Source of the DNA: Saprospiraceae bacterium
Lineage (GTDB): Bacteria > Bacteroidota > Bacteroidia > Chitinophagales > Saprospiraceae
Assembly (NCBI GenBank): GCA_022844565.1
Contig: JALHLK010000019.1
Coordinates: forward strand, 1-64,000
Direction: 5' to 3'
DNA: 64,000 nucleotides
The position numbers and the translations under genes were made by a program. Position 1 is the first letter of the stretch. Each line of letters opens with the position of its first letter. Below the pieces are notes generated by a model. It was not told the DNA's origin. It worked only from the letters and a program-made list of their open reading frames with translations, and searched no databases. Positions 2,778-64,000 of this stretch are shown piece after piece.

Positions 2778-2850
2778 ATTAAATTGTATAAAATTTTTAT
2801 TAGGTTTTCTTTTTAGAATAAGACCAATAATTACTTTTTTAAAAATAGTA

Positions 2851-3492
2851 TTAATGATACCTAAGCGGTAATAAGATTTTTGATTTATCGACATTTTCAA
2901 ATATAAAAATCAAATTGTCATAATCATTCTCATCAAATATTTTATTGTAAATCTGCTTTCCATAAAGGTAATTGGTTAATACTGGGATCGTATTAGAATG
3001 CCCCACAATGAGCACATTATGTTCATTCAGTGAGGTCCTTACCTTTTCGACTAGATTTTTGAGTTCTTTGTTGTCATATGGATAAGTTGGTAATGATTTT
3101 ATATCACATAGGCTGTCTACGGTATATAATGTACGAGTTGTGATCGTAGAATATACAGCATCAATTCTAAAATTATCAAATATATCCGCTAATTTAGCTG
3201 CTCTCTTAAGACCCGCTTCATTAAGTGGTGCATCCCCACTTTTATCGCTTGTATCTTTTTCAGCGTGTCTTGTTAATATAAAAGTTTTAAGGTATTTCTT
3301 TTCATCGATTTTGTAATTAGTACCGTCCTCAAAAAATATGGTGTTATTGGCAATGTTTTTTACATATTTTTCTTTGTGTATTTCTATATCGTTAGCTTTA
3401 GAACTTTCTTTTGTTTGGGTCTCTTTGCAAGAGGATATGAATAACATAACAGAAGCAATAAAGAGAAAAATTCTGATTGTATTATTTTTCAT
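2851..3492 (-). CDS. histidine phosphatase (phosphoglycerate mutase-like) lipoprotein
   Basis: 213 aa. An N-terminal lipoprotein signal (hydrophobic stretch ending in FISSC, Cys22) predicts export and lipid anchoring. The mature part carries the RHAEK phospho-histidine motif (FILTRHAEKD, about residues 72-80) and a second catalytic His in VLIVGHSNT, the hallmarks of the branch-2/SixA-like histidine phosphatase fold. The substrate cannot be read from sequence; extracytoplasmic members act on small phospho-compounds. It lies 73 bp upstream of valS on the same strand, so co-transcription is possible, but no functional link is evident. Confidence 0.85.
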   Translation of the reverse strand: MKNNTIRIFLFIASVMLFISSCKETQTKESSKANDIEIHKEKYVKNIANNTIFFEDGTNYKIDEKKYLKTFILTRHAEKDTSDKSGDAPLNEAGLKRAAKLADIFDNFRIDAVYSTITTRTLYTVDSLCDIKSLPTYPYDNKELKNLVEKVRTSLNEHNVLIVGHSNTIPVLTNYLYGKQIYNKIFDENDYDNLIFIFENVDKSKILLPLRYH

Positions 3493-8744: not shown

Positions 8745-10658
8745 ATGGTATATGTAGAAAATATAAGTCTTACTTTCGGTGACAGAAGACTTCTTGATAA
8801 AATAACATTTGTACTTAATCATAAGGACAGAGTTGCTTTGGTAGGCCGTAATGGGGCAGGAAAGTCAACACTTCTAAAGATTATTGCAGGTATAGAGCAA
8901 GGTGATGGTGGTAATATTAGCTTCCCAAAAGAATTTAAAACTGGATATCTTAAGCAAGACTTGCATTTTGATAATGATATTCCATTGATAGAGGAAGTTA
9001 AAAATTGTTTCGTAGAATATAACGCCTTACATCAAAAATTAGTGAATATAACCGAAGAGATAGGAAGTCGAGTAGACTACGAATCTGAAGATTATCACAA
9101 GCTATTTGACGTAATGACTGAAGTTAATGACCGATTAGCCATCATCAGTGCTGGTAACATCGACGCAGATATCGAAAAGGTACTTAAAGGTCTTGGTTTT
9201 AAAACAACTGATTTTCAAAAGAAAATGCGTGAATTCAGTGGAGGTTGGCAAATGAGGGTAGAACTTGCTAAGTTGCTTCTGACCAAACCTAATCTATTGA
9301 TGCTCGATGAGCCTACTAACCACTTGGATATGGATGCCATCATTTGGTTAGAATCATATCTTTTGACTTATCCCGGTATTGTACTGATCATTTCTCACGA
9401 TAAGAAGTTTCTTAATAATGTAGCATCAAAAATTGTTGAATTAGAATTAGGAAGAGCATCAGAATATAGTGGTAACTACGATTTTTACATTAAGGAGCGT
9501 GTTGCACAAAGAGAAATTCTCCAAAATGCATATCAAAATCAACAAAAAGCCTTAGCACAAAAGGAGAAGACGATTAATCGATTTATGGCCAAAGCAACAA
9601 AAACATCTATGGCTCAGTCGATGCAAAAACAATTGGATAAAATAGAGCGAATTGAGATACCTGATGAGGATGATAGTGTATTTAATATCAAGTTTCCAAA
9701 ATCACCACACTGTGGGAATGTCGTACTCGAAGCAAAGGGGATATATCAATCTTTTGGAGAAAAACTAGTCCTTAAAGATGTGAATTTTATATTAGAAAAA
9801 GGAGATAGGATTGGTTTTGTAGGCCAAAATGGTATGGGAAAAACTACAATGGCCAAAATTATTAATAATGGTTTGACTCCTACTAAAGGTAGCATAAGAT
9901 TAGGTTCAAATGTGGCTATATCTTATTTTGCACAAAATCAAGCTGAATTATTAGATACCAAAAAAACAGTTTTGGACGTGATGGAAGATAATGCACCTGC
10001 CGACCAAAGATCGAGGGTAAGGTCTATTTTGGGTGCGTTTTTATTCTCTGGTGATGATGTCGACAAAAGAGTCAGCGTGCTAAGTGGTGGTGAAAGAGCA
10101 AGGTTAGCGATGGCATGTATGATCATAAAACCGGGTAATTTATTGATACTCGATGAGCCTACCAATCACTTGGATATGCAATCTAAAGAAATATTGAAAC
10201 AAGCTATAAAAGCATATGACGGTACCTTATTGGTAGTAAGTCATGATAGAGAGTTTTTAGAAGACTTAACTGATAAGACCTATGAGTTTGCAGACCAAAA
10301 CATTATTGAACATTTAGGAGACATTAATTATTTCTTAGATAGAAAAAAATATGCTGATGTAAGAGATATTGATTCTACATCGGGCAAAGTATCAGAAAGT
10401 GTTGCTCCAGCTCCTGTAAAAGTAATTGACCGAGAAGAACTTAAAAAACTGCAAAGAAAATTGCAGTATATTGAACGCGATATAGAAAAGTCTGAGAAAG
10501 AAATAGCTGAATTAGGTGAAAAAATGGCAGATCCTTCTTTTTATATGAAACCTGAATTTCAAAGTGTCTCAAGTAAGTCTAAAGATGCCAATTTAAAATT
10601 AGAAGCACTTATGGTGGAATGGGAAGAAGTTGCGGGAAAGATCGAAATTTTGGCATAA
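8745..10658 (+). CDS. ABC-F family ATPase
   Basis: 637 aa. Two ABC ATPase domains occur in one chain with no membrane segments. Walker A motifs are GRNGAGKST (~35-43) and GQNGMGKTT (~360), signature motifs FSGGWQMR and LSGGERAR, and Walker B motifs LLMLDEPTNHLD and LLILDEPTNHLD. The charged ~75-residue linker between them is the ABC-F P-site-tRNA interaction region. A C-terminal coiled coil (~565-637) resembles Uup/YdiF-type members. ABC-F proteins act on the ribosome in translation quality control or antibiotic protection; which one applies here cannot be read from sequence. Confidence 0.93.
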   Translation: MVYVENISLTFGDRRLLDKITFVLNHKDRVALVGRNGAGKSTLLKIIAGIEQGDGGNISFPKEFKTGYLKQDLHFDNDIPLIEEVKNCFVEYNALHQKLVNITEEIGSRVDYESEDYHKLFDVMTEVNDRLAIISAGNIDADIEKVLKGLGFKTTDFQKKMREFSGGWQMRVELAKLLLTKPNLLMLDEPTNHLDMDAIIWLESYLLTYPGIVLIISHDKKFLNNVASKIVELELGRASEYSGNYDFYIKERVAQREILQNAYQNQQKALAQKEKTINRFMAKATKTSMAQSMQKQLDKIERIEIPDEDDSVFNIKFPKSPHCGNVVLEAKGIYQSFGEKLVLKDVNFILEKGDRIGFVGQNGMGKTTMAKIINNGLTPTKGSIRLGSNVAISYFAQNQAELLDTKKTVLDVMEDNAPADQRSRVRSILGAFLFSGDDVDKRVSVLSGGERARLAMACMIIKPGNLLILDEPTNHLDMQSKEILKQAIKAYDGTLLVVSHDREFLEDLTDKTYEFADQNIIEHLGDINYFLDRKKYADVRDIDSTSGKVSESVAPAPVKVIDREELKKLQRKLQYIERDIEKSEKEIAELGEKMADPSFYMKPEFQSVSSKSKDANLKLEALMVEWEEVAGKIEILA

Positions 10659-55727: not shown

Positions 55728-57296
55728 ATGGCAAAACAGAAGAAAGAAGTAAAAGAAAAAGCAATTGAAGTTACCCTTTGGGAAGCTGCAAATAAATTGA
55801 GAGGAAGCGTTGAGCCAGCTGAGTACAAACACGTTGTATTAGGACTAGTATTCTTAAAGTTTGCCAGCGATAAGTTTGAAGAACACCGAGCCAAAATCAT
55901 TGCAGAAGGCAAAGAAAAATATATTGAGATGCCTGAGTTTTACAATATGAGTAATGTGTTTTTTTTAGAAGAAATATCACGTTGGAACTACATTGTAAAA
56001 AAGGCAAGACAAAATGATATTGCCTTAATCATTGACACAGCTCTGCATACAATTGAAAAAGACAACAAGGCTCTGAAAGGGGCCCTGCCCGACAATTATT
56101 TTTCTCGTTTGGGTTTAGACATTACCAAATTGGCTTCTTTGATTAGCGAAATTGACAGCATAAATACACTCAAAGACAAAGAACAAGATTTGGTTGGTCG
56201 TGTGTATGAATACTTCCTGAAAAAGTTTGCGATTGCAGAAGGAAAGGGCAAAGGAGAATTCTATACGCCAAAAACAATTGTAAGCCTTATTTCAGAAATG
56301 ATTGAACCATACAAAGGCATTATCTATGATCCTGCTTGTGGTTCGGGTGGTATGTTTGTGCAATCCATCAAGTTTATAGAAGCACACCACGGAAACCAAA
56401 AAGAGGTTTCTATTTACGGGCAGGAATATACCAAAACCACGTATAAACTGGCAAAGATGAATCTTGCCATTAGAGGAATTTCTGCAAACCTTGGTGAAAA
56501 AGATGCAGACACATTTGCGGACGACCAACACAAAGACTTGAAAGCCGATTACATTATGGCAAACCCACCTTTTAACCAAAAAGACTGGAGAGGCGAAAAT
56601 GAATTGATTGACGACCCACGCTGGAGAGGTTATGATGTGCCACCCAAAAGCAACGCCAACTATGGTTGGATTTTGAATATGGTTTCTAAACTCTCCGAAA
56701 ACGGAATTGCAGGTTTTATATTGGCGAATGGTGCATTGAGTGGCGGTGGCGAAGAATACAAAATACGCAGAAAGCTCATTGAAAATAATTTGGTAGAAGC
56801 AATTGTAGTAATTCCAAGAGAGGTATTCTACACTACCGACATCAGTGTTACGCTTTGGATTTTAAATAAAAACAAAAAGGCAAGAGCTATGGAGATTAAC
56901 GGTAAACAGAAAAACTACCGTGACCGTGAGAAGGAAATTTTGTTTGTGGATTTGAGGCGTTGGGGAACTGAATTTGAAAAAATGTTCATAGAACTTTCAG
57001 AAGAAGATATTAATAACGTAACCAAAAATTTTCATAACTGGCAACAGATTGATTACAAAACTACTTATAAAAACATTCCTGAATATTGCTATTCCGCAAG
57101 TTTTGAAGAAATAAAAGCTAACAATTTTTCTCTCATACCTAGTAAATATATTGAATTTGTTGATACTGATAGTAAAATCGACTTTGAACAGGAAATGAAA
57201 CGTATCCAAAAAGACTTTAAAACATTAATTATTGAAGAAAAACAATCGCAAGAGCAATTAATTAACGCTTTTAAAACTTTAGGCTATGAGTTATAA
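55728..57296 (+). CDS. hsdM: type I restriction-modification methyltransferase subunit HsdM
   Basis: 522 aa. An N-terminal helical N6-Mtase domain (~10-140) precedes the SAM-binding motif I DPACGSGG (201-208) and the catalytic NPPF (279-282), as expected for N6-adenine methylation. GKGEFYTPKTIV before motif I is the family hallmark. A C-terminal helical tail would pair with HsdS. It is the first gene of the island and starts 96 bp after the carboxylase stop; no promoter was recognised. HsdS overlaps its end by 11 bp. Confidence 0.97.
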   Translation: MAKQKKEVKEKAIEVTLWEAANKLRGSVEPAEYKHVVLGLVFLKFASDKFEEHRAKIIAEGKEKYIEMPEFYNMSNVFFLEEISRWNYIVKKARQNDIALIIDTALHTIEKDNKALKGALPDNYFSRLGLDITKLASLISEIDSINTLKDKEQDLVGRVYEYFLKKFAIAEGKGKGEFYTPKTIVSLISEMIEPYKGIIYDPACGSGGMFVQSIKFIEAHHGNQKEVSIYGQEYTKTTYKLAKMNLAIRGISANLGEKDADTFADDQHKDLKADYIMANPPFNQKDWRGENELIDDPRWRGYDVPPKSNANYGWILNMVSKLSENGIAGFILANGALSGGGEEYKIRRKLIENNLVEAIVVIPREVFYTTDISVTLWILNKNKKARAMEINGKQKNYRDREKEILFVDLRRWGTEFEKMFIELSEEDINNVTKNFHNWQQIDYKTTYKNIPEYCYSASFEEIKANNFSLIPSKYIEFVDTDSKIDFEQEMKRIQKDFKTLIIEEKQSQEQLINAFKTLGYEL

Positions 57297-58404
57297 GCGA
57301 ATTGGAGATTACATACGGTTATCGGATAAACGCAATTCTGATTTAAAAATAAATCGATTAAGAGGAGTTTCTACAACTAAACAATTAATTGTTTCTGTTG
57401 CAAATATGTCGGGAGTTAGTCTTGGTAATTATAAAGTTGTAGAGAAAAATCAATTTGTTTATGTTGCAGACACTTCCAGAAGAGGAGAAAAAATAGGGCT
57501 AGCATTAAATGACGGTGACCCTTGTATTGTTTCTAGCATATATACAGTTTTTGAAGTTATTGATACAAAAATTCTGTTATCAGAGTATCTATTTATTTGG
57601 TTTAATCGGTCCGAATTTGACAGATATGCCCGATTTAATTCTTGGGGTAGTGCAAGAGAAACTTTTAACTGGGAAGATATGTGTGAAGTAAAAATGCCAA
57701 TACCACACATTGACGAGCAAAGAAAATATGTTGCACTTTATACGGGTTTACTTTCCAATCAAAAAACTTATGAAAACAGCTTAACAGATTTGCAATTGAT
57801 TTGTGACACCTACATTGAAAATTTAATAAATACTGAAAATCGTAAATTACTCGGACAATATATAGAATTGTATGAAGAAAGAAATACTAGTATGAGTATT
57901 AAAAGAGTACAAGGTGTATCAATTTCTAAAGTATTTATTGAGACTAGAGCAAATATGAGTGGCGTAAGTATTCATGATTATAAGGTTGTCAGAAAAGGAC
58001 ATTTTGCCTTTAATCCTAATACAGCTCGTATGGGAGAAAAAATTTGTGTTGCATTAAATGATGGCGAAGTTTGCATTGTTTCTAAGATTTACCCTGTTTT
58101 TAAGGTAATTGACACAAGTAAATTGTTGCCAGAATATTTATTACTATGGTTTACCAGACCTGATTTTGACCGCTACGCAAGATTTCATTCTTGGGGTAGT
58201 GCAAGAGAAACTTTTGATTGGGCTGATATGTGCAATGTAAAATTGCCAATCCCAGATATTAAAATTCAGGAAGCCATTGTAACCATTTACCACACGTTGG
58301 AAACACGTAAACGAATCAATGAGCAATTAAAAAACACCATTAAACCGCTTTGTCCTGTGCTGATGAAAGGTGTGGTGGAGAGTATGAAATTAGAAACTGT
58401 ATAA
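57286..58404 (+). CDS. hsdS: type I restriction specificity subunit HsdS with two near-duplicate halves
   Basis: 372 aa. Two target-recognition domains, ~1-150 and ~185-345, each followed by a helical conserved region. The two halves are strikingly alike (both contain LNDG-(D/E)-x-CIVS, FDRYARF-(N/H)-SWGSARETF and a PIPxI end), unlike normal HsdS, whose two domains differ. A 29-base stretch is identical at 57638-57666 and 58187-58215. HsdS binds the bipartite DNA target; two similar domains predict a near-palindromic target. The start ATG lies within hsdM. Confidence 0.93.
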   Translation: MSYKRIGDYIRLSDKRNSDLKINRLRGVSTTKQLIVSVANMSGVSLGNYKVVEKNQFVYVADTSRRGEKIGLALNDGDPCIVSSIYTVFEVIDTKILLSEYLFIWFNRSEFDRYARFNSWGSARETFNWEDMCEVKMPIPHIDEQRKYVALYTGLLSNQKTYENSLTDLQLICDTYIENLINTENRKLLGQYIELYEERNTSMSIKRVQGVSISKVFIETRANMSGVSIHDYKVVRKGHFAFNPNTARMGEKICVALNDGEVCIVSKIYPVFKVIDTSKLLPEYLLLWFTRPDFDRYARFHSWGSARETFDWADMCNVKLPIPDIKIQEAIVTIYHTLETRKRINEQLKNTIKPLCPVLMKGVVESMKLETV

Positions 58405-58414
58405 TATTTAGAGA

Positions 58415-60502
58415 ATGGATTTTGTAATTAGAAATTGTAACAACATAGATACTGGTAGTATTCAAATTGTAAAAGGTAAACTTAATATTAAATTTGGTGT
58501 TAATGGTACAGGAAAAAGTACAATAGCAAAAGCAATAAAGTACAGTATTGAAGCACCCGAAAAGTTAACTGAATTACTACCTTTTAAGTTAAGAAAAATA
58601 GAAACCGAGCTTGTACCAGAAGTTGAAAAGTCGGAAGAAATTTCAAGTGTTTTTATTTTTAATGAAGAGTACCTTAATCAATTTTTATACAGGCAAGATG
58701 AATTAATTTCAAATAGCTTTGAAATATTTATAAAAACACCAAATTACCTTTTATCTCTTGAAAAAATTGAAGAATTATTGGTAGGTATAAAAAACGTTTT
58801 TACCCTTAATGCAGAACTAAATCAAATTATAAAAGACTTCGAAAGTTTGTCAAATAGCTTTGTAATTACTAAATCTGGTATCTCTAAAAAATCAGCTATT
58901 TACAAAGGTTTAGAAGATGGCAATAAAATTGAGCATATTCCCGAACACTTAAAAGGGTATTCTACATTTTTGAAAAATAGCAACTGCACTAGTTGGTTAG
59001 ATTGGCAAATAAAGGGAGAAGCTTTTGTTGACATATCAGACGATTGCCCTTATTGTACATCTTCTACGGTAGAAAAAAAAGAAACTATTAAATCTGTTGC
59101 TAAAACCTATGATAAAAATGTAATAAAAAATTTCTCTGCAATTATAGAAGCAATTAAAAATCTTGGAGATTATTTCTCTGATGACACTAAAAATACACTA
59201 GAAATAATTACTAAAAAACATTCTGGCTTAGAAGACCCTGAAATTAATTTTCTTGTATTTGTAAAACAACAAATTGATGATCTTCTTCAAAAACTAAAAG
59301 ATTTAAGGGATATATCACCCAAGAGTTTTAAGGAAGTTGAAAACGTAAGAGATAAAATAACCAACTTAAAAATAAACATTAATTTGTTCGACAGATTTAA
59401 GTCTGACAAATCAGTAACAATTGTCAATTCTTTAAATGATTCCTTAGACGAAGTTCTTGATAAAGTTGGATTGCTTCAGGGTGAGATTAGTAGACAAAAA
59501 CAACAAACAAGGAAGTTAATCGAACAGCATCAAAATGGCATTAATTCATTTCTTGAAAACGCTGGGTATAAATATGTAGTTGAGATAACAGATGAACAAA
59601 GTGAAGATTATAAACTGAGGTTGCGGCATATTGAATCTGTTGAGAAAATTTCAGGTGGGAATCAGCATTTGAGTTTTGGAGAGAAAAATGCTTTTGCACT
59701 CGTTTTATTTATGTACGAAGCACTATCAAAAGATCCTGATTTGATAATCTTAGATGACCCAATCTCTTCATTCGATAAAAATAAAAAGTATGCTATAATG
59801 CATATGCTATTTAGAATGGATGTATGTTTGAAAAATAGGTCAGTTCTAATGCTTACCCACGACCTTGAACCAGTTATAGATACAGTTAAAGTTCTACAAG
59901 AATTTCATAACCTAACAGTCGCTAAATTTTTATCGTCAAAAAATGGTATTTTATCTGAAAAAGCTATCACCAGAAATAATATTCTAACCTTTTCGCAAAT
60001 TTGCAATAATGTTCTTTTAACTGATGTAGATGAAATAATCAAGCTAATTTATCTACGAAGAAAATTGGAAACCATTGATGATAAAGGAGATGGTTATGAA
60101 GTGTTGTCAAATCTATTTCATAAAAGAACTCATGTTGAATGTAGAGATTTTAGGAAAGATCCTGAAGACGATTTAATGGATGATGCTACTTTTATTCGTG
60201 GTATTGAATTAATAATAGAATCCATTCCAACATTCAACTACGGGGCTACTCTAGTAAAAATATCAAATGATGAAGTAGTAAAAGATCTTTATAACCTTAC
60301 TGAAAATGGATATTTAAAACTTCAGCTATTTAGACTACTTTATGAAAACTCTTTAAAGGGCAAAGATAGTATTTTGCAAAAATTTGTGAACGAAACTTAT
60401 CACATCGAAAACGAGTTAATTTGTCAATTGGATCCAATTGAATTTGACCTAATACCTTCATCTATTATTGAAAAATGTAATATTCACATTTTAACCCACT
60501 AA
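58415..60502 (+). CDS. zinc-hook ABC-type ATPase, RloC/PrrC-like candidate anticodon nuclease
   Basis: 695 aa, soluble. Walker A GVNGTGKST (28-36), a central coiled-coil with a CPYC zinc-hook-like motif (211-214), signature LSFGEKNAFA (~420), Walker B LIILDDPISSFD (446-454), and H-loop LTHDLEP. The LDDPxSSFD form and zinc hook are typical of RloC-type proteins. Beyond the ATPase, the C-terminal region has Arg548-x3-Glu552 followed by His569/His573, which recalls the Arg-Glu-His triad of PrrC/RloC; the His spacing differs from PrrC, so nuclease activity is inference. It sits between hsdS and hsdR, as prrC does. Its composition is more AT-rich than the genes after it. Confidence 0.85.
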   Translation: MDFVIRNCNNIDTGSIQIVKGKLNIKFGVNGTGKSTIAKAIKYSIEAPEKLTELLPFKLRKIETELVPEVEKSEEISSVFIFNEEYLNQFLYRQDELISNSFEIFIKTPNYLLSLEKIEELLVGIKNVFTLNAELNQIIKDFESLSNSFVITKSGISKKSAIYKGLEDGNKIEHIPEHLKGYSTFLKNSNCTSWLDWQIKGEAFVDISDDCPYCTSSTVEKKETIKSVAKTYDKNVIKNFSAIIEAIKNLGDYFSDDTKNTLEIITKKHSGLEDPEINFLVFVKQQIDDLLQKLKDLRDISPKSFKEVENVRDKITNLKININLFDRFKSDKSVTIVNSLNDSLDEVLDKVGLLQGEISRQKQQTRKLIEQHQNGINSFLENAGYKYVVEITDEQSEDYKLRLRHIESVEKISGGNQHLSFGEKNAFALVLFMYEALSKDPDLIILDDPISSFDKNKKYAIMHMLFRMDVCLKNRSVLMLTHDLEPVIDTVKVLQEFHNLTVAKFLSSKNGILSEKAITRNNILTFSQICNNVLLTDVDEIIKLIYLRRKLETIDDKGDGYEVLSNLFHKRTHVECRDFRKDPEDDLMDDATFIRGIELIIESIPTFNYGATLVKISNDEVVKDLYNLTENGYLKLQLFRLLYENSLKGKDSILQKFVNETYHIENELICQLDPIEFDLIPSSIIEKCNIHILTH

Positions 60503-60546
60503 TCATAAAATATGTTTAAATAAGAAAACTATTCAAATTTTAAAAA

Positions 60547-60576
60547 TGTCCAGTTATTTTGCTAAGAAACTGGACA
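60547..60576. promoter_or_regulatory. perfect 9-bp inverted repeat upstream of the DUF6088 gene
   Basis: TGTCCAGTT (60547-60555) and AACTGGACA (60568-60576) are perfect complements across a 12-base gap, 31 bp before the DUF6088 start. No T-run follows, so a plain terminator of the ATPase gene is less likely than an operator. AbiEi-like regulators bind such repeats upstream of their own genes (family knowledge); binding here is inference. Confidence 0.55.
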
Positions 60577-60607
60577 AATAAATTATCTTTATACGACAAT
60601 AAAATGG

Positions 60608-61333
60608 ATGAAAACATCGGAATACATAGCATTTACCATAGATAGGCTGCCCAAAGGCTATGTATTCACCTATACCGACTTTACCACGGAGGTGAGCCAA
60701 AAAGAAGCTGTCATAAAAGCACTGAACCGTATGGTGGCTTCGGGTAAAATCGTCAAACTGTCCAAAGGAAAATACTATAAACCCGAAAATACCCCTTTTG
60801 GTAATCTTCAACCCAATCAGGCACAAGTAGTAAAAGATTTGTTGGAAGAAAACGGAAAAACAACAGGCTATCTCACAGGTTACAGCATTTACAACCAATT
60901 GGGCTTAACCACACAGGTAAGCAATATCATACAAATCGGGAAAAATCAGATTCGCCCCAATTTTAAACGAGAACGCTATACGATTGCTTTTGTAAGGCAA
61001 AAAAACACCTTCACCAAAGAGAACACTCCATTGTTGCAATTACTGGATGCCATTCGCTACATCAAAAAAATACCTGATGCCAGTATAGAAGCATCCTGTA
61101 AGCGGTTTTTAGCCATTATCAAAAACTTTACGGATAAAGAAATCTATACCTTGGCTCGCTTGGCATTAAAATATCCGCCCGTTACAAGGGCTTTGGCAGG
61201 TGCTTTGTTAGACTCTTTGCAACAAGGCAAAGCAACAGAACCACTTTTCAAATTATTGAACCCAATTACGAAGTATAAACTGGCAGGTGCAACGAAAGCT
61301 TTATCCACCACCGAAAAATGGAACATAATATGA
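60608..61333 (+). CDS. DUF6088 / AbiEi-antitoxin-like winged-helix protein
   Basis: 241 aa, cytoplasmic. The N-terminal ~60 residues (YTDFTTEVSQKEAVIKALNRMVASGKIVKLSKGKYYKP) form the winged helix and wing typical of AbiEi-type antitoxins, followed by the TGYSIYNQLGLTTQV block of DUF6088 proteins. No AbiEii nucleotidyltransferase toxin lies next to it; instead rhuM follows, with ATGA-type overlap. It probably regulates its own cassette through the inverted repeat upstream. An ATG 4 bp earlier is in another frame. Confidence 0.85.
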   Translation: MKTSEYIAFTIDRLPKGYVFTYTDFTTEVSQKEAVIKALNRMVASGKIVKLSKGKYYKPENTPFGNLQPNQAQVVKDLLEENGKTTGYLTGYSIYNQLGLTTQVSNIIQIGKNQIRPNFKRERYTIAFVRQKNTFTKENTPLLQLLDAIRYIKKIPDASIEASCKRFLAIIKNFTDKEIYTLARLALKYPPVTRALAGALLDSLQQGKATEPLFKLLNPITKYKLAGATKALSTTEKWNII

Positions 61334-62322
61334 ACAGCGAAATCATCATATACCAAAATCCTGACGGCAGCATAAAAATCGACGTTCGGCTGGAAGAAGA
61401 AACCGTTTGGCTTACGCAAGCACAAATGGCGGAACTGTTTGGCAAAAGTAGAACTACCATTACCGAACATATCCAAAATGTATTTAAAGAAGGTGAATTG
61501 GATGAAAATTCAGTATGTCGGAATTTCCGACATACTGCCGCAGATGGGAAAAGTTATGATACCAATTACTACAACCTTGACGTTATCATTTCGGTAGGTT
61601 ACAGGGTCAAATCGCCTCAAGGTACCCAGTTTCGCATTTGGGCTACTCAACGGTTGAAAGAATACATTATCAAGGGTTTTGCACTGAATGATGATCGTTT
61701 TAAGTCGGGTAACTCGATGAACTATTTCAACGAACTGCAGGAACGCATTCGGGAAATACGTCTTTCGGAAAGGTTTTTTTATCAGAAAATAAAGGATATT
61801 TACACGACTAGTATTGATTATGAAGCCAAGGATGAAAAAACGATAGAGTTTTTTAAGGTGGTACAAAACAAATTATTGTGGGCTATCAGTGAACAAACAG
61901 CAGCAGAGCTGATCTATCGGAGAGTAGATGCTGATTTGCCATTATTGGGTATGCAATCGTATGATAAGAAAAATTCAGCTTCAATAAATAAATCAGATGT
62001 AAGTATTGCAAAAAACTATCTGAAAGAAGACGAAATAAAACTACTTGGTTTGTTGGTGGAGCAATATTTGGCCTTTGCCGAAACAATGGCTCAACAGCGC
62101 ACTCCAATGTATATGGCCGATTGGATACAGCGCTTGGATAGTATTTTGCAACTCAACGGCAGAGAGCTTTTGACACATGCAGGAAAAATAAGCCATGAGA
62201 GGGCTCTTAAAAAGTCAAGTGAAGAGCTAGAAAAATACCGCTTATCTCAAAAAGTATTAGATAAGGAACTAAGTCTAAAAGAGTTGGAGCTGGACATAAA
62301 AAAACTGAAACCTAAAAAATGA
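61330..62322 (+). CDS. rhuM: RhuM family protein
   Basis: 330 aa. The N-terminal half is the RhuM/Fic-associated HTH-like domain: VWLTQAQMAELFGKSRTTITEHIQNVFKEGEL (~21-52), then SYDTNYYNLDVIISVGYRVKSPQGTQFRIWATQRLKEYI, which is diagnostic. The C-terminal ~120 residues are helical. RhuM proteins recur inside type I restriction loci; their function is not established. The ATG at 61330 overlaps the DUF6088 stop (ATGA) and is preferred over 61318. Its stop overlaps the hsdR start in the same way, so three genes are translationally linked. Confidence 0.88.
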   Translation: MNSEIIIYQNPDGSIKIDVRLEEETVWLTQAQMAELFGKSRTTITEHIQNVFKEGELDENSVCRNFRHTAADGKSYDTNYYNLDVIISVGYRVKSPQGTQFRIWATQRLKEYIIKGFALNDDRFKSGNSMNYFNELQERIREIRLSERFFYQKIKDIYTTSIDYEAKDEKTIEFFKVVQNKLLWAISEQTAAELIYRRVDADLPLLGMQSYDKKNSASINKSDVSIAKNYLKEDEIKLLGLLVEQYLAFAETMAQQRTPMYMADWIQRLDSILQLNGRELLTHAGKISHERALKKSSEELEKYRLSQKVLDKELSLKELELDIKKLKPKK

Positions 62323-64000
62323 AGTTTACAGAAGCAAGTTTAGAAAAAGCGTTCATTGAATTGTTGGGGCAAGAAGGATTTCCTCAACACCTTGGTATTA
62401 TGATAACTCGTAAGCCAGATGAAGTATTGATCGAAGAAGATTTGCAAAGCTTCCTGTTGGCCGAATACGACCTTCAAGGAATTACGGGAAGCGAAGTCAA
62501 ATCGATCATTCTCCAACTCAAAACCCTTTCTGCATCCGACCTTTACGAAAGTAACAAAACATTTTTGAGAATGCTTTCAGACGGTTTTATTCTCAAACGA
62601 GAAGACCGAAGCCAAAAAGACATTTACATTCAACTGATTGATTATAGGGGGTTGAATAGACAGAAAAAGCCCGAAAATGAATATCTTATTTCAATAGCAG
62701 CAGAACCCGAAGTAGAATATGGTAGTGACAATAATATTTACAAGTTTGTCAATCAATTAGAAATTGTTGGTTCAGAAAAACGCATACCTGATGGTATTGT
62801 GTACATCAATGGTTTGCCTTTGGTGGTATTTGAGTTTAAATCTGCTATACGTGAAGATGCTACGATACATGATGCCTACAAACAATTGACGGTTCGTTAT
62901 CGCAGAGATATTCCCGAACTGTTTAAGTACAATGCTTTTTGCGTAATCAGCGATGGCGTAAACAACAAAGCAGGTTCGTTCTTTGCCCCTTATGAGTTTT
63001 TCTATGCGTGGCGGTCTGAGCCTGACAGACGTATCTTTGATGCTGATGGTTTTAATTCTATGTTCTCTATGATCCAAGGGATGTTTAACCAAAGGATACT
63101 AAGAGATATCATTCGCAACTTCATTTACATTCCTGATACTTCTAAGAAAAACGAAAAAATAGTTTGTCGCTATCCGCAATACTATGCAGCAAGAGCTTTG
63201 TACGACAACATCAAGTTAGCTCAAAAGCCCGAAGGTAACGGAAAAGGTGGAACATATTTTGGTGCTACTGGTTGTGGGAAGAGTTTCACAATGCTTTATC
63301 TGACAAGGTTGTTGATGAAAAGTGAATACTTTGGAAGCCCGACCATTGTATTAATTACGGATAGAACCGACTTAGACGACCAACTATCAGGTCAATTTAC
63401 CAATGCTAAAAATTTTATTGGCGACAATACAGTGGTAAGTGTTGAGAGTAGAGCCAATCTGAGAGAATTAATTCAAGGCAGGCAAAGCGGAGGTGTTTTC
63501 TTAACCACCATCCACAAGTTTACAGAAGATACCCAACTGCTCACCGATAGAACCAATGTGATTTGTATATCTGACGAAGCACACAGAAGCCAAGTAAACC
63601 TTGACCAAAAAGTAAAAGTTACCGATAAAGGTGTTACCAAAACTTATGGCTTCGCCAAATATTTACACGATTCGTTGCCCAATGCTACTTTTGTAGGTTT
63701 CACAGGAACACCTATTGATGCGACACTAGATGTATTTGGTCGAGTGGTAGATGCTTATACGATGACTGAATCAGTGAAAGATGAAATCACCGTAAGAATT
63801 GTATATGAAGGCAGAGCCGCTAAGGTTGCTCTAAATAATAGCGAATTAGAGAAAATAGAAAGATATTACGAAGAGGCTGCCAATGCAGGTGCCAATGAAT
63901 ATCAGATAGAAAAAAGTAAAGAAGAAACTACTAGCATGAACGCTATTTTGGGCGATCCTAAACGTCTTTTGACCTTAGCGGATGACTTTATTAAACATTA
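62319..64000 (+). CDS. hsdR: type I restriction endonuclease subunit HsdR, 3' end beyond the window
   Basis: The frame is open for 560 codons and runs off the right edge, so about half to two thirds of the gene is here. The PD-(D/E)xK nuclease core is Asp158 in IPDGIVY and Glu172-x-Lys174 in VFEFKSA. The SF2 motor has Walker A GATGCGKS (315-322), DEAH 419-422 in CISDEAHRS, and VGFTGTPID. It translocates DNA and cuts unmodified host-foreign DNA with HsdM and HsdS. The ATG at 62319 overlaps the rhuM stop. No stop codon or frameshift is seen in the visible part. Confidence 0.95.
   Translation, partial: MKFTEASLEKAFIELLGQEGFPQHLGIMITRKPDEVLIEEDLQSFLLAEYDLQGITGSEVKSIILQLKTLSASDLYESNKTFLRMLSDGFILKREDRSQKDIYIQLIDYRGLNRQKKPENEYLISIAAEPEVEYGSDNNIYKFVNQLEIVGSEKRIPDGIVYINGLPLVVFEFKSAIREDATIHDAYKQLTVRYRRDIPELFKYNAFCVISDGVNNKAGSFFAPYEFFYAWRSEPDRRIFDADGFNSMFSMIQGMFNQRILRDIIRNFIYIPDTSKKNEKIVCRYPQYYAARALYDNIKLAQKPEGNGKGGTYFGATGCGKSFTMLYLTRLLMKSEYFGSPTIVLITDRTDLDDQLSGQFTNAKNFIGDNTVVSVESRANLRELIQGRQSGGVFLTTIHKFTEDTQLLTDRTNVICISDEAHRSQVNLDQKVKVTDKGVTKTYGFAKYLHDSLPNATFVGFTGTPIDATLDVFGRVVDAYTMTESVKDEITVRIVYEGRAAKVALNNSELEKIERYYEEAANAGANEYQIEKSKEETTSMNAILGDPKRLLTLADDFIKH

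Follow-up and report, generated by a model that had tools for sequence, protein, structure and literature searches.

A palindrome within rhuM as the probable binding site of its own product in a type I restriction operon of a Saprospiraceae bacterium

Introduction

Foreign genes between hsdS and hsdR of a type I restriction operon have already been published; as far as the accessible text of PMC12255303 goes, DarTG2 is inserted at such a site, the site is termed a potential recombination hotspot, and a small repressor controls the island. In the AbiE system, AbiEi of Streptococcus agalactiae is described as repressing its own promoter via inverted repeats (PMC7319586, accessible part), and the motif given for the anticodon nuclease RloC is Arg-X3-Glu-X36-52-His (PMC2610378, accessible part). 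Further defense candidates have come from guilt by embedding, for most of which validation is pending; the accessible text of that source mentions no palindrome (PMC12988326). We here analyze a stretch of 64,000 nt (hereafter the window) from a Saprospiraceae bacterium (GCA_022844565.1, contig JALHLK010000019.1, positions 1-64,000, forward strand), where genes for an ATPase, a DUF6088 protein and RhuM lie between hsdS and hsdR. RhuM has a virulence-derived name and is a listed defense candidate, for which no mechanism was found in the literature searched.

We propose, with a probability of roughly 0.6, that rhuM genes are self-reading: namely, the codons of the RhuM wing would form a palindrome bound by the same winged helix, site and reader would have co-diversified across many phyla by a simple code, and RhuM would be a new throttling controller in restriction operons. 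No description of a covarying palindrome within such a gene was found in the literature searched (the preprint 10.1101/2024.01.29.577857 lies outside that search), and we thus regard it as undescribed.

Results

The palindrome at 61511-61537 was first flagged by a self-match, and a long inverted repeat was found at the same place in most of 67 RhuM open reading frames (ORFs; at least 300 aa). Perfect repeats of at least 12 bp were present in 45 of 69 RhuM ORFs, as compared with none in the genes for the ATPase (0/84), HsdM (0/84), HsdS (0/74), HsdR (0/82), AbiEii (0/16) and AlbA (0/14) and one each in those for DUF6088 (1/22) and Fic (1/23). The best repeat with 10-bp arms was perfect in 94 and paired at 9/10 in 30 of 136 distinct rhuM genes, versus 1 and 38, respectively, of 371 other genes, and the spacer was exactly 5 nt in 119 of the 124 rhuM genes with perfect or 9/10 arms; indeed, the exact 10-5-10 repeat occurred in 52 of 69 RhuM ORFs but in only 15 of 2093 other ORFs. 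Also, 15 of 19 further homologues that had earlier been matched only in the N-terminal domain possessed a perfect repeat. When the center was defined by homology, 9 or 10 of the 10 positions were paired in 130 of 155 rhuM genes, and the same was true of 69 of 82 genes with less than 70% identity that were picked regardless of the repeat. Perfect repeats were furthermore found in Chlorobium (L022), Nitrospira (L027), a myxococcote (L040), a lentisphaerote (L083) and a paceibacterote (L025). The longest one seen belongs to a rhuM gene at 8935-9960 of locus L202, with perfect 20-bp arms and a 5-nt spacer.

While the sequence of the palindrome varies between rhuM genes, its symmetry persists. Chance is ruled out as its origin by the comparison with other genes, by synonymous-codon shuffles, of which all 10 were exceeded by the RhuM arm in 50 of 67 genes, and by double changes at third codon positions. 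On a tree from which the palindrome region had been left out, changes from one Watson-Crick pair to another were counted on 226 branches at offsets 3-12 and on 4 at offsets 14-16, and those in which both partners are third codon positions numbered 26, 27, 6 and 18 at offsets 3, 6, 9 and 12. A cause at the level of the protein was also rejected; the encoded peptide varies widely among homologues, and the helix columns that track the palindrome are encoded outside it.

The symmetry might instead serve a hairpin in the mRNA that controls translation or mRNA decay. The window transcript can indeed be folded there (11-bp stem, -19.4 kcal/mol, z -4.0), and pairing is less strict at the two central pairs, as in a loop. 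Mismatches nonetheless speak otherwise: GT/TG and AC/CA numbered 11 and 13 of 1380 cells, 27 and 39 of 1550 in the unselected set, and 7 and 5 of 730 in the non-redundant set, so that G-U was no commoner than A-C in any of the three gene sets. Because G-T, which would pair in mRNA, is as rare as A-C, duplex DNA is favored over RNA, and the arms furthermore co-vary with a DNA-recognition helix, as described below. These results point to the rhuM palindrome acting as duplex DNA, and we consider the hairpin very improbable.

RhuM of the window belongs to PF13310 (336 bits; curated cut-off, 33.7) and to PADLOC PDC-S05. In its AlphaFold2 model (mean predicted local distance difference test score (pLDDT), 81.1; predicted template modeling score (pTM), 0.53), helices at 30-37 and 41-53 and strands at 63-69 and 75-81 make the N-terminal part a predicted winged helix, and it is the wing that the palindrome encodes (residues 61-69). 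Beyond the winged helix, the model has further helices and no match in PDB at E <= 0.001; the best fold match, DdrC, is weak (E 1.4e-3; TM-score, about 0.2-0.3). A sequence search against solved structures gave nothing convincing, and no catalytic motif was recognized in RhuM.

Covariation was examined in 74 non-redundant rhuM genes with less than 70% identity, the palindrome-encoded columns being set apart. The inner bases of the arms track E46, T43, S40 and T42, the middle ones T45, R41 and T42, and the outer ones D72, A70 and Y76. Residues 39-50 of the helix exceed the remaining columns for the inner (p 8e-6) and middle bases (p 2e-5), while wing residues 70-80 track the outer (p 3e-4) but not the inner or middle bases (p 0.34 and 0.39, respectively); with four control labels taken from other codons, the helix gave p 0.96-1.00. 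The inner triplet follows the helix type: namely, CGG goes with KSKxTISEH-like helices, GCA with R or K at 46, AAG with N43 and L46, TCC with A43 and K46, and CGA with Y46. In the code that we propose, residues 40-46 would read the inner and middle bases and wing residues 70-76 the outer ones.

After the covariation analysis, we wrote a rule that predicts the inner bases from residues 43 and 46. It fits 116 of 127 source genes, and its test was made on 12 new RhuM genes carried by plasmids of Pseudomonadota, Bacillota, Actinomycetota, Campylobacterota and Bacteroidota that are 44-85% identical to the nearest known copy. The rule was correct in 9 of the 10 predictable genes (chance agreement, 0.21), and the single miss was one base (CGG for AGG). 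Ten pairs were present in 8 of the 12 genes, 9 in 2 and 8 in 2; the center was found by a search that often reaches 8/10 by chance, and the informative figure is therefore 10 of 12 with 9-10 pairs. Given the covariation of the arms with the helix and the success of the rule, RhuM is probably a DNA-binding protein that binds the palindrome in its own gene.

Of 395 genomes drawn from the phylum of the window, 104 contain RhuM, and the 60 loci examined are the best plus a hand-picked part of those listed, that is, a non-random sample. Relatives in viral contigs numbered 1 by a single sequence and at least 80 by alignment, and DNA similarity revealed none in E. coli genomes, which says little at such divergence. 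Association with type I or III genes was counted within 3 kb; because the restriction-gene models were built from few seeds, all of these counts are lower bounds, and one genome scan scored only 2 candidates per genome. That the three central genes are tied to type I systems had been set beforehand as a test of the sequence-only reading, and the outcome was divided: a restriction gene lay nearby at 33 of 60 RhuM loci, in keeping with that claim, but at only 19 of 79 ATPase and 2 of 19 DUF6088 loci. Since the counts split in this way, the ATPase, DUF6088 and rhuM are not one co-inherited type I module. RhuM was within 150 bp of a type I or III gene on the same strand at 19 of the 60 loci, and 8 of the 12 plasmid copies were inside type I or III operons. 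A type III Mod gene lies near RhuM at L185, L188, L201, L206, L217 and L218.

The features of the island are collected in Table 1. With hsdM, hsdS with two recognition halves, and hsdR with HSDR_N and translocase domains together, the locus is, judged from its gene content, a type I restriction-modification operon. The window edge falls within hsdR, which is complete in the parent contig (1071 aa, stop-free to base 65534). ORFs and family matches bear out the gene order, common strand and tight packing that had been read from the sequence, including the overlap of hsdM with hsdS and the 10-bp gap before the ATPase; the title of that reading, in contrast, counted four accessory layers, and the accessory genes number three. 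The ATGA overlap of rhuM and hsdR at 62319-62322 is there as claimed, and that of DUF6088 and rhuM at 61330-61333 holds given that rhuM starts at its second ATG (61330), which agrees with the starts of homologues; counted from the first ATG (61318), this overlap is 16 bp.

Table 1. Coordinates of the operon and its elements in the window
Feature	Position	Strand	Basis or remark
hsdM, methyltransferase subunit	55728..57296	+	ORF, HsdM family match
hsdS, specificity subunit	57286..58404	+	ORF, HsdS family match; 11-bp overlap with hsdM
ABC-type ATPase with zinc hook	58415..60502	+	PADLOC PDC-S06; starts 10 bp after hsdS
Predicted DUF6088 (AbiEi-type) operator palindrome	60547..60576	no strand	conserved across DUF6088 genes
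TATCTTTA, resembling the presumed Bacteroidetes -7 element TAnnTTTG	60584..60591	+	sequence; same place in relatives
DUF6088, AbiEi-family regulator	60608..61333	+	Pfam DUF6088 and PADLOC AbiEi
rhuM	61330..62322 (likely start 61330; ORF open from 61318)	+	PF13310, PDC-S05
RhuM codons 40-49, predicted start of recognition helix	61447..61476	+	co-vary with palindrome arms
Palindrome inside rhuM, encoding predicted wing residues 61-69	61511..61537	no strand	core arms 61512-61521 and 61527-61536, spacer 61522-61526
hsdR	62319..64000, on to contig base 65534	+	ORF, HsdR family match

The halves of HsdS share 51% identity over a length of 177 residues, the top value among 55 HsdS proteins compared, and such alike recognition domains suggest a near-palindromic target. 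Alike halves were also seen in HsdS of L280, L282 and L284.

HsdR relatives were sought in the 395 genomes, 80 of which gave a match at E <= 1e-100, and 16 near relatives with 40-81% identity (15 loci, L270-L284, plus L123) were viewed. Genes other than hsdS directly precede hsdR in 10 of the 16, with hsdS off the stretch in three of these; hsdS is followed by hsdR with no insert in 5, and 1 is undecided. Among the scanned cargo ORFs of these relatives, 14 of 20 matched PADLOC models at E <= 1e-10, the families being SIR2, HerA, OLD/Gabija-like ATPases, HEC-05, HEC-06, SduA (Shedu), AriA-like proteins, HamB (Hachiman) and PDC families. The same position before hsdR holds SIR2-HerA-DUF6088-AbiEii in G016, where AbiEii and hsdR overlap by 4 bp, Fic-RhuM in L022, L174 and L178, and an AlbA/Schlafen gene in L010. 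Judged from these contents, the gap that separates hsdS from hsdR is a cargo slot for exchangeable defense genes, and the ATPase, DUF6088 and rhuM are cargo that met in one slot. At L022, L024, L027 and L178, the order is a Bro-N gene, hsdS, DUF2188 (77 aa), a PDC-S06 ATPase, Fic-RhuM or AlbA, and hsdR. Behind hsdR of L022 is a YgjP metallopeptidase gene (Pfam), with a clustered homologue in L024 and L027.

Such a slot also admits an explanation in which the cargo is independent: the ATPase, DUF6088 and RhuM would have been inserted separately in a defense hotspot, would be tied to HsdR by no more than shared transcripts, and RhuM would regulate only itself. The contents of the slot do vary among near relatives, few copies of the ATPase and DUF6088 are near restriction genes, and RhuM is alone at 27 of 60 loci, all of which would be expected of independent cargo. 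Its placement within 150 bp of restriction genes and inside plasmid restriction operons, at the frequencies given above, argues for a closer tie, however, as does the ATGA overlap of rhuM and hsdR, which amounts to translational coupling. Independent cargo is therefore a serious possibility, albeit one that we hold to be less than evenly probable.

DUF6088 of the window is of the AbiEi family (PADLOC PDLC02226, 194 bits), and matches to DUF6088 were found at 22 places in 19 of the 395 genomes and not in viral contigs. The gene that follows is AbiEii at 19 of the 22 places, Fic at 2 and RhuM at 1, the window itself; there, the second gene is rhuM and not an AbiEii nucleotidyltransferase. The same genome has a DUF6088-AbiEii pair with the same operator on contig C82 (L005, 1505-3234), and this second copy of DUF6088 is 86% identical in DNA to the window over 60533 to 61334. 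Because the identity ends at the overlapping start codon, rhuM occupies the position of the toxin; also, the four extra RhuM residues read from 61318 match the AbiEii start in the paralogous locus.

The palindrome in front of DUF6088, TGTCCAGTT-N12-AACTGGACA (60547-60576), has perfect arms, and none of 100 shuffles gave a match when up to 3 mismatches were allowed. The form TGTC(C/A)AGT-N14-ACT(G/T)GACA is upstream of 21 of the 22 DUF6088 genes, two with one mismatch, at a distance to the start of mostly about 30 bp and of about 65 bp in five. The 395 genomes contain 15 exact copies of its C-form, of which 13 are upstream of DUF6088, and the reversed-pattern control gave 0. The exact palindromes away from DUF6088 (G132 and G171) are just behind genes and terminator-like, and no remnant of DUF6088 or AbiEii was found beside them. 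At L009 (contig C31), a version with two mismatches (1501-1530) has no adjoining DUF6088, and a RhuM-like fragment, recognized by eye, is about 1.3 kb off (2828-3028). In 9 of 14 upstream regions with the C-type operator, TAnnTTTG stands at the same place behind it, which we take to be the consensus of the Bacteroidetes -7 element, with TATCTTTA as the counterpart in the window. The stretch 60547-60576 is therefore predicted to be the conserved operator of DUF6088, and the earlier suggestion that a second unit starts behind a palindrome has gained support from the sequence.

With RhuM in the AbiEii position to the base, the pair might be a toxin-antitoxin system, in which DUF6088 is the antitoxin and RhuM a replacement toxin for AbiE-like abortive infection when restriction fails. 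AbiE is a known toxin-antitoxin system (PMC7319586, accessible part), and Fic, another toxin-like fold, takes the place after DUF6088 in 2 of 22 cases. Most RhuM copies nevertheless have no adjoining DUF6088, and the predicted fold described above, with a winged helix plus helices and no recognizable catalytic motif, gives little sign of a toxin. We regard this possibility as unlikely.

The ATPase (695 aa) matches PADLOC PDC-S06 with 899 bits and Pfam AAA_13 in part. Across 66 aligned ATPases, the Walker motifs, C211-P-x-C214, R548, R549, E552, H663 and E665 are kept; the CxxC hook is an insert between Walker A and the signature, and neither the zinc hook nor R-x3-E varies in any of the 66. 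Its model (pLDDT, 86.0; pTM, 0.71) resembles the heads of SMC, Rad50, RecN and RecF. In the sequence-only reading, this protein was an RloC/PrrC-like anticodon nuclease that backs up restriction, and the Rad50/SMC-like head, the invariant CPxC hook with R-x3-E, and a length within the RloC range of 658-897 aa (PMC2610378, accessible part) would suit it. Nonetheless, no conserved His was found in the 66 ATPases at the RloC spacing Glu-X36-52-His, the nearest conserved one being H663 (X110) and H570 (X17) not being invariant; no anticodon nuclease was among the 50 listed structure matches of the model; the length and the zinc-hook insert differ from PrrC (341-416 aa, no insert); and PADLOC assigns the protein to PDC-S06. 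No scored restriction gene is within 3 kb at 60 of 79 ATPase loci, and RloC itself is reported to be rarely so linked (8/73; PMC2610378, accessible part). The contexts include type I operons, a type III operon in which Mod, the PDC-S06 ATPase and RhuM adjoin (L025), and positions behind BREX pglZ-brxL (L018, L032, L048 and L081). The hook and R-x3-E of the earlier claim thus stand, the RloC/PrrC-like identity is unproven, and a restriction backup by an anticodon nuclease is distinctly unlikely.

Discussion

The locus is best explained, on balance of probability, as a cargo-slot type I operon in which a DUF6088 promoter unit has rhuM in place of AbiEii and DUF6088 and RhuM exert nested control over hsdR. 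This explanation is assembled from features read directly in the DNA, namely, the gene order, the families, the DUF6088-linked operator, the overlapping start codon as the point of exchange, and the covarying rhuM palindrome. DUF6088 would repress the promoter at about 60584-60591 in the manner of AbiEi, as we infer because AbiEi of S. agalactiae acts so via inverted repeats. A RhuM dimer would then bind, via its winged helix, the palindrome in its own codons 61-69 and hinder RNA polymerase before it reaches hsdR; such a roadblock, placed 190 nt into rhuM, would dampen rhuM and what lies behind it, here hsdR. The output of HsdR would thus be under two nested feedback loops, from which the upstream hsdM and hsdS are exempt, and HsdR would rise once either loop is released, be it upon phage attack or in a new host; the ATPase would be a separate defense gene on the hsdM-hsdS transcript. 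The proposal that DUF6088 and RhuM control hsdR accordingly fares well as to likely regulators in front of hsdR, given the operator and the RhuM site, while the control itself is suggested by gene order and overlap.

Several results weigh against this picture. At most 8 of 10 pairs were found in 12 of 136 rhuM genes, and no more than 7 at the homology-defined center in 17 of 155, in part through alignment shift, as at L025. Some columns that belong to neither the helix nor the wing score with the inner bases as well (K94, z 6.3; Q32, z 4.9), and the palindrome is foldable as mRNA, as described. The pairing of DUF6088 with RhuM was seen once among the 22 DUF6088 places in 395 genomes. The 27 of 60 RhuM loci where no restriction gene was scored within 3 kb mean that control of hsdR is not the general job of RhuM. 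A second RhuM site with up to 3 mismatches was not found in its own genome, and in the loci of 130 genes extra sites numbered 2 at up to 3 mismatches (control, 0), 3 at 4 (1.0) and 12 at 5 (5.8), a slight excess of few sites; promoter control by RhuM is therefore unsupported, and action on its own transcript is the simplest reading.

The palindrome and the code make RhuM a testable DNA-binding protein with a site that is predictable for almost any member. If our proposal is correct, a site in its own codons would make reader and site inseparable on transfer, and an operator carried along in this way would suit genes that move from one restriction operon to another. For type I and III systems, there would also be a controller that works by feedback, much as the C proteins do for type II, which would explain how an operon can delay its cutting subunit. 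An operator that moves with DUF6088, furthermore, would exemplify the capture of a toxin-antitoxin promoter to drive another gene.

In this island, known parts are arranged in a new way; intragenic operators and controller proteins are already known kinds, and the RhuM site is putative. The following comparisons are with the accessible parts of the sources cited. The RptR-RMS-DarTG2-M48 island of enteropathogenic E. coli is likewise a type I operon whose hsdS and hsdR are separated by a foreign toxin-antitoxin pair, but RptR is encoded ahead of hsdM and its targets are direct repeats of the promoter, whereas the predicted regulators of the window are in the gap, with the probable site of RhuM in its own codons (PMC12255303). 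With the AbiE type IV system, the window shares an AbiEi-family protein, inverted repeats at the promoter and a partner directly downstream; that partner is AbiEii and the repeats are two of 23 bp in AbiE, in contrast to RhuM and one pair of 8-9 bp arms here (PMC7319586). The ATPase resembles RloC/PrrC as an ABC ATPase with R-x3-E and, as in RloC, a CxxC zinc hook, but is without the His at the RloC spacing (PMC2610378), and it matches, as does RhuM, a PADLOC guilt-by-embedding candidate, PDC-S06 and PDC-S05, respectively (PMC12988326). GalR operator OI in galE is also the site of a repressor dimer within a coding sequence, where RNA polymerase has to pass, but is in the gene of another protein, and elongation can override the block there (PMC4693257). 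Finally, type II C proteins are controllers encoded in the operon that set endonuclease output by feedback through a palindromic box, as would RhuM; their C-boxes are in the promoter, whereas the rhuM palindrome belongs to the reading frame, where it specifies a portion of the predicted DNA-binding domain itself (PMC4824078).

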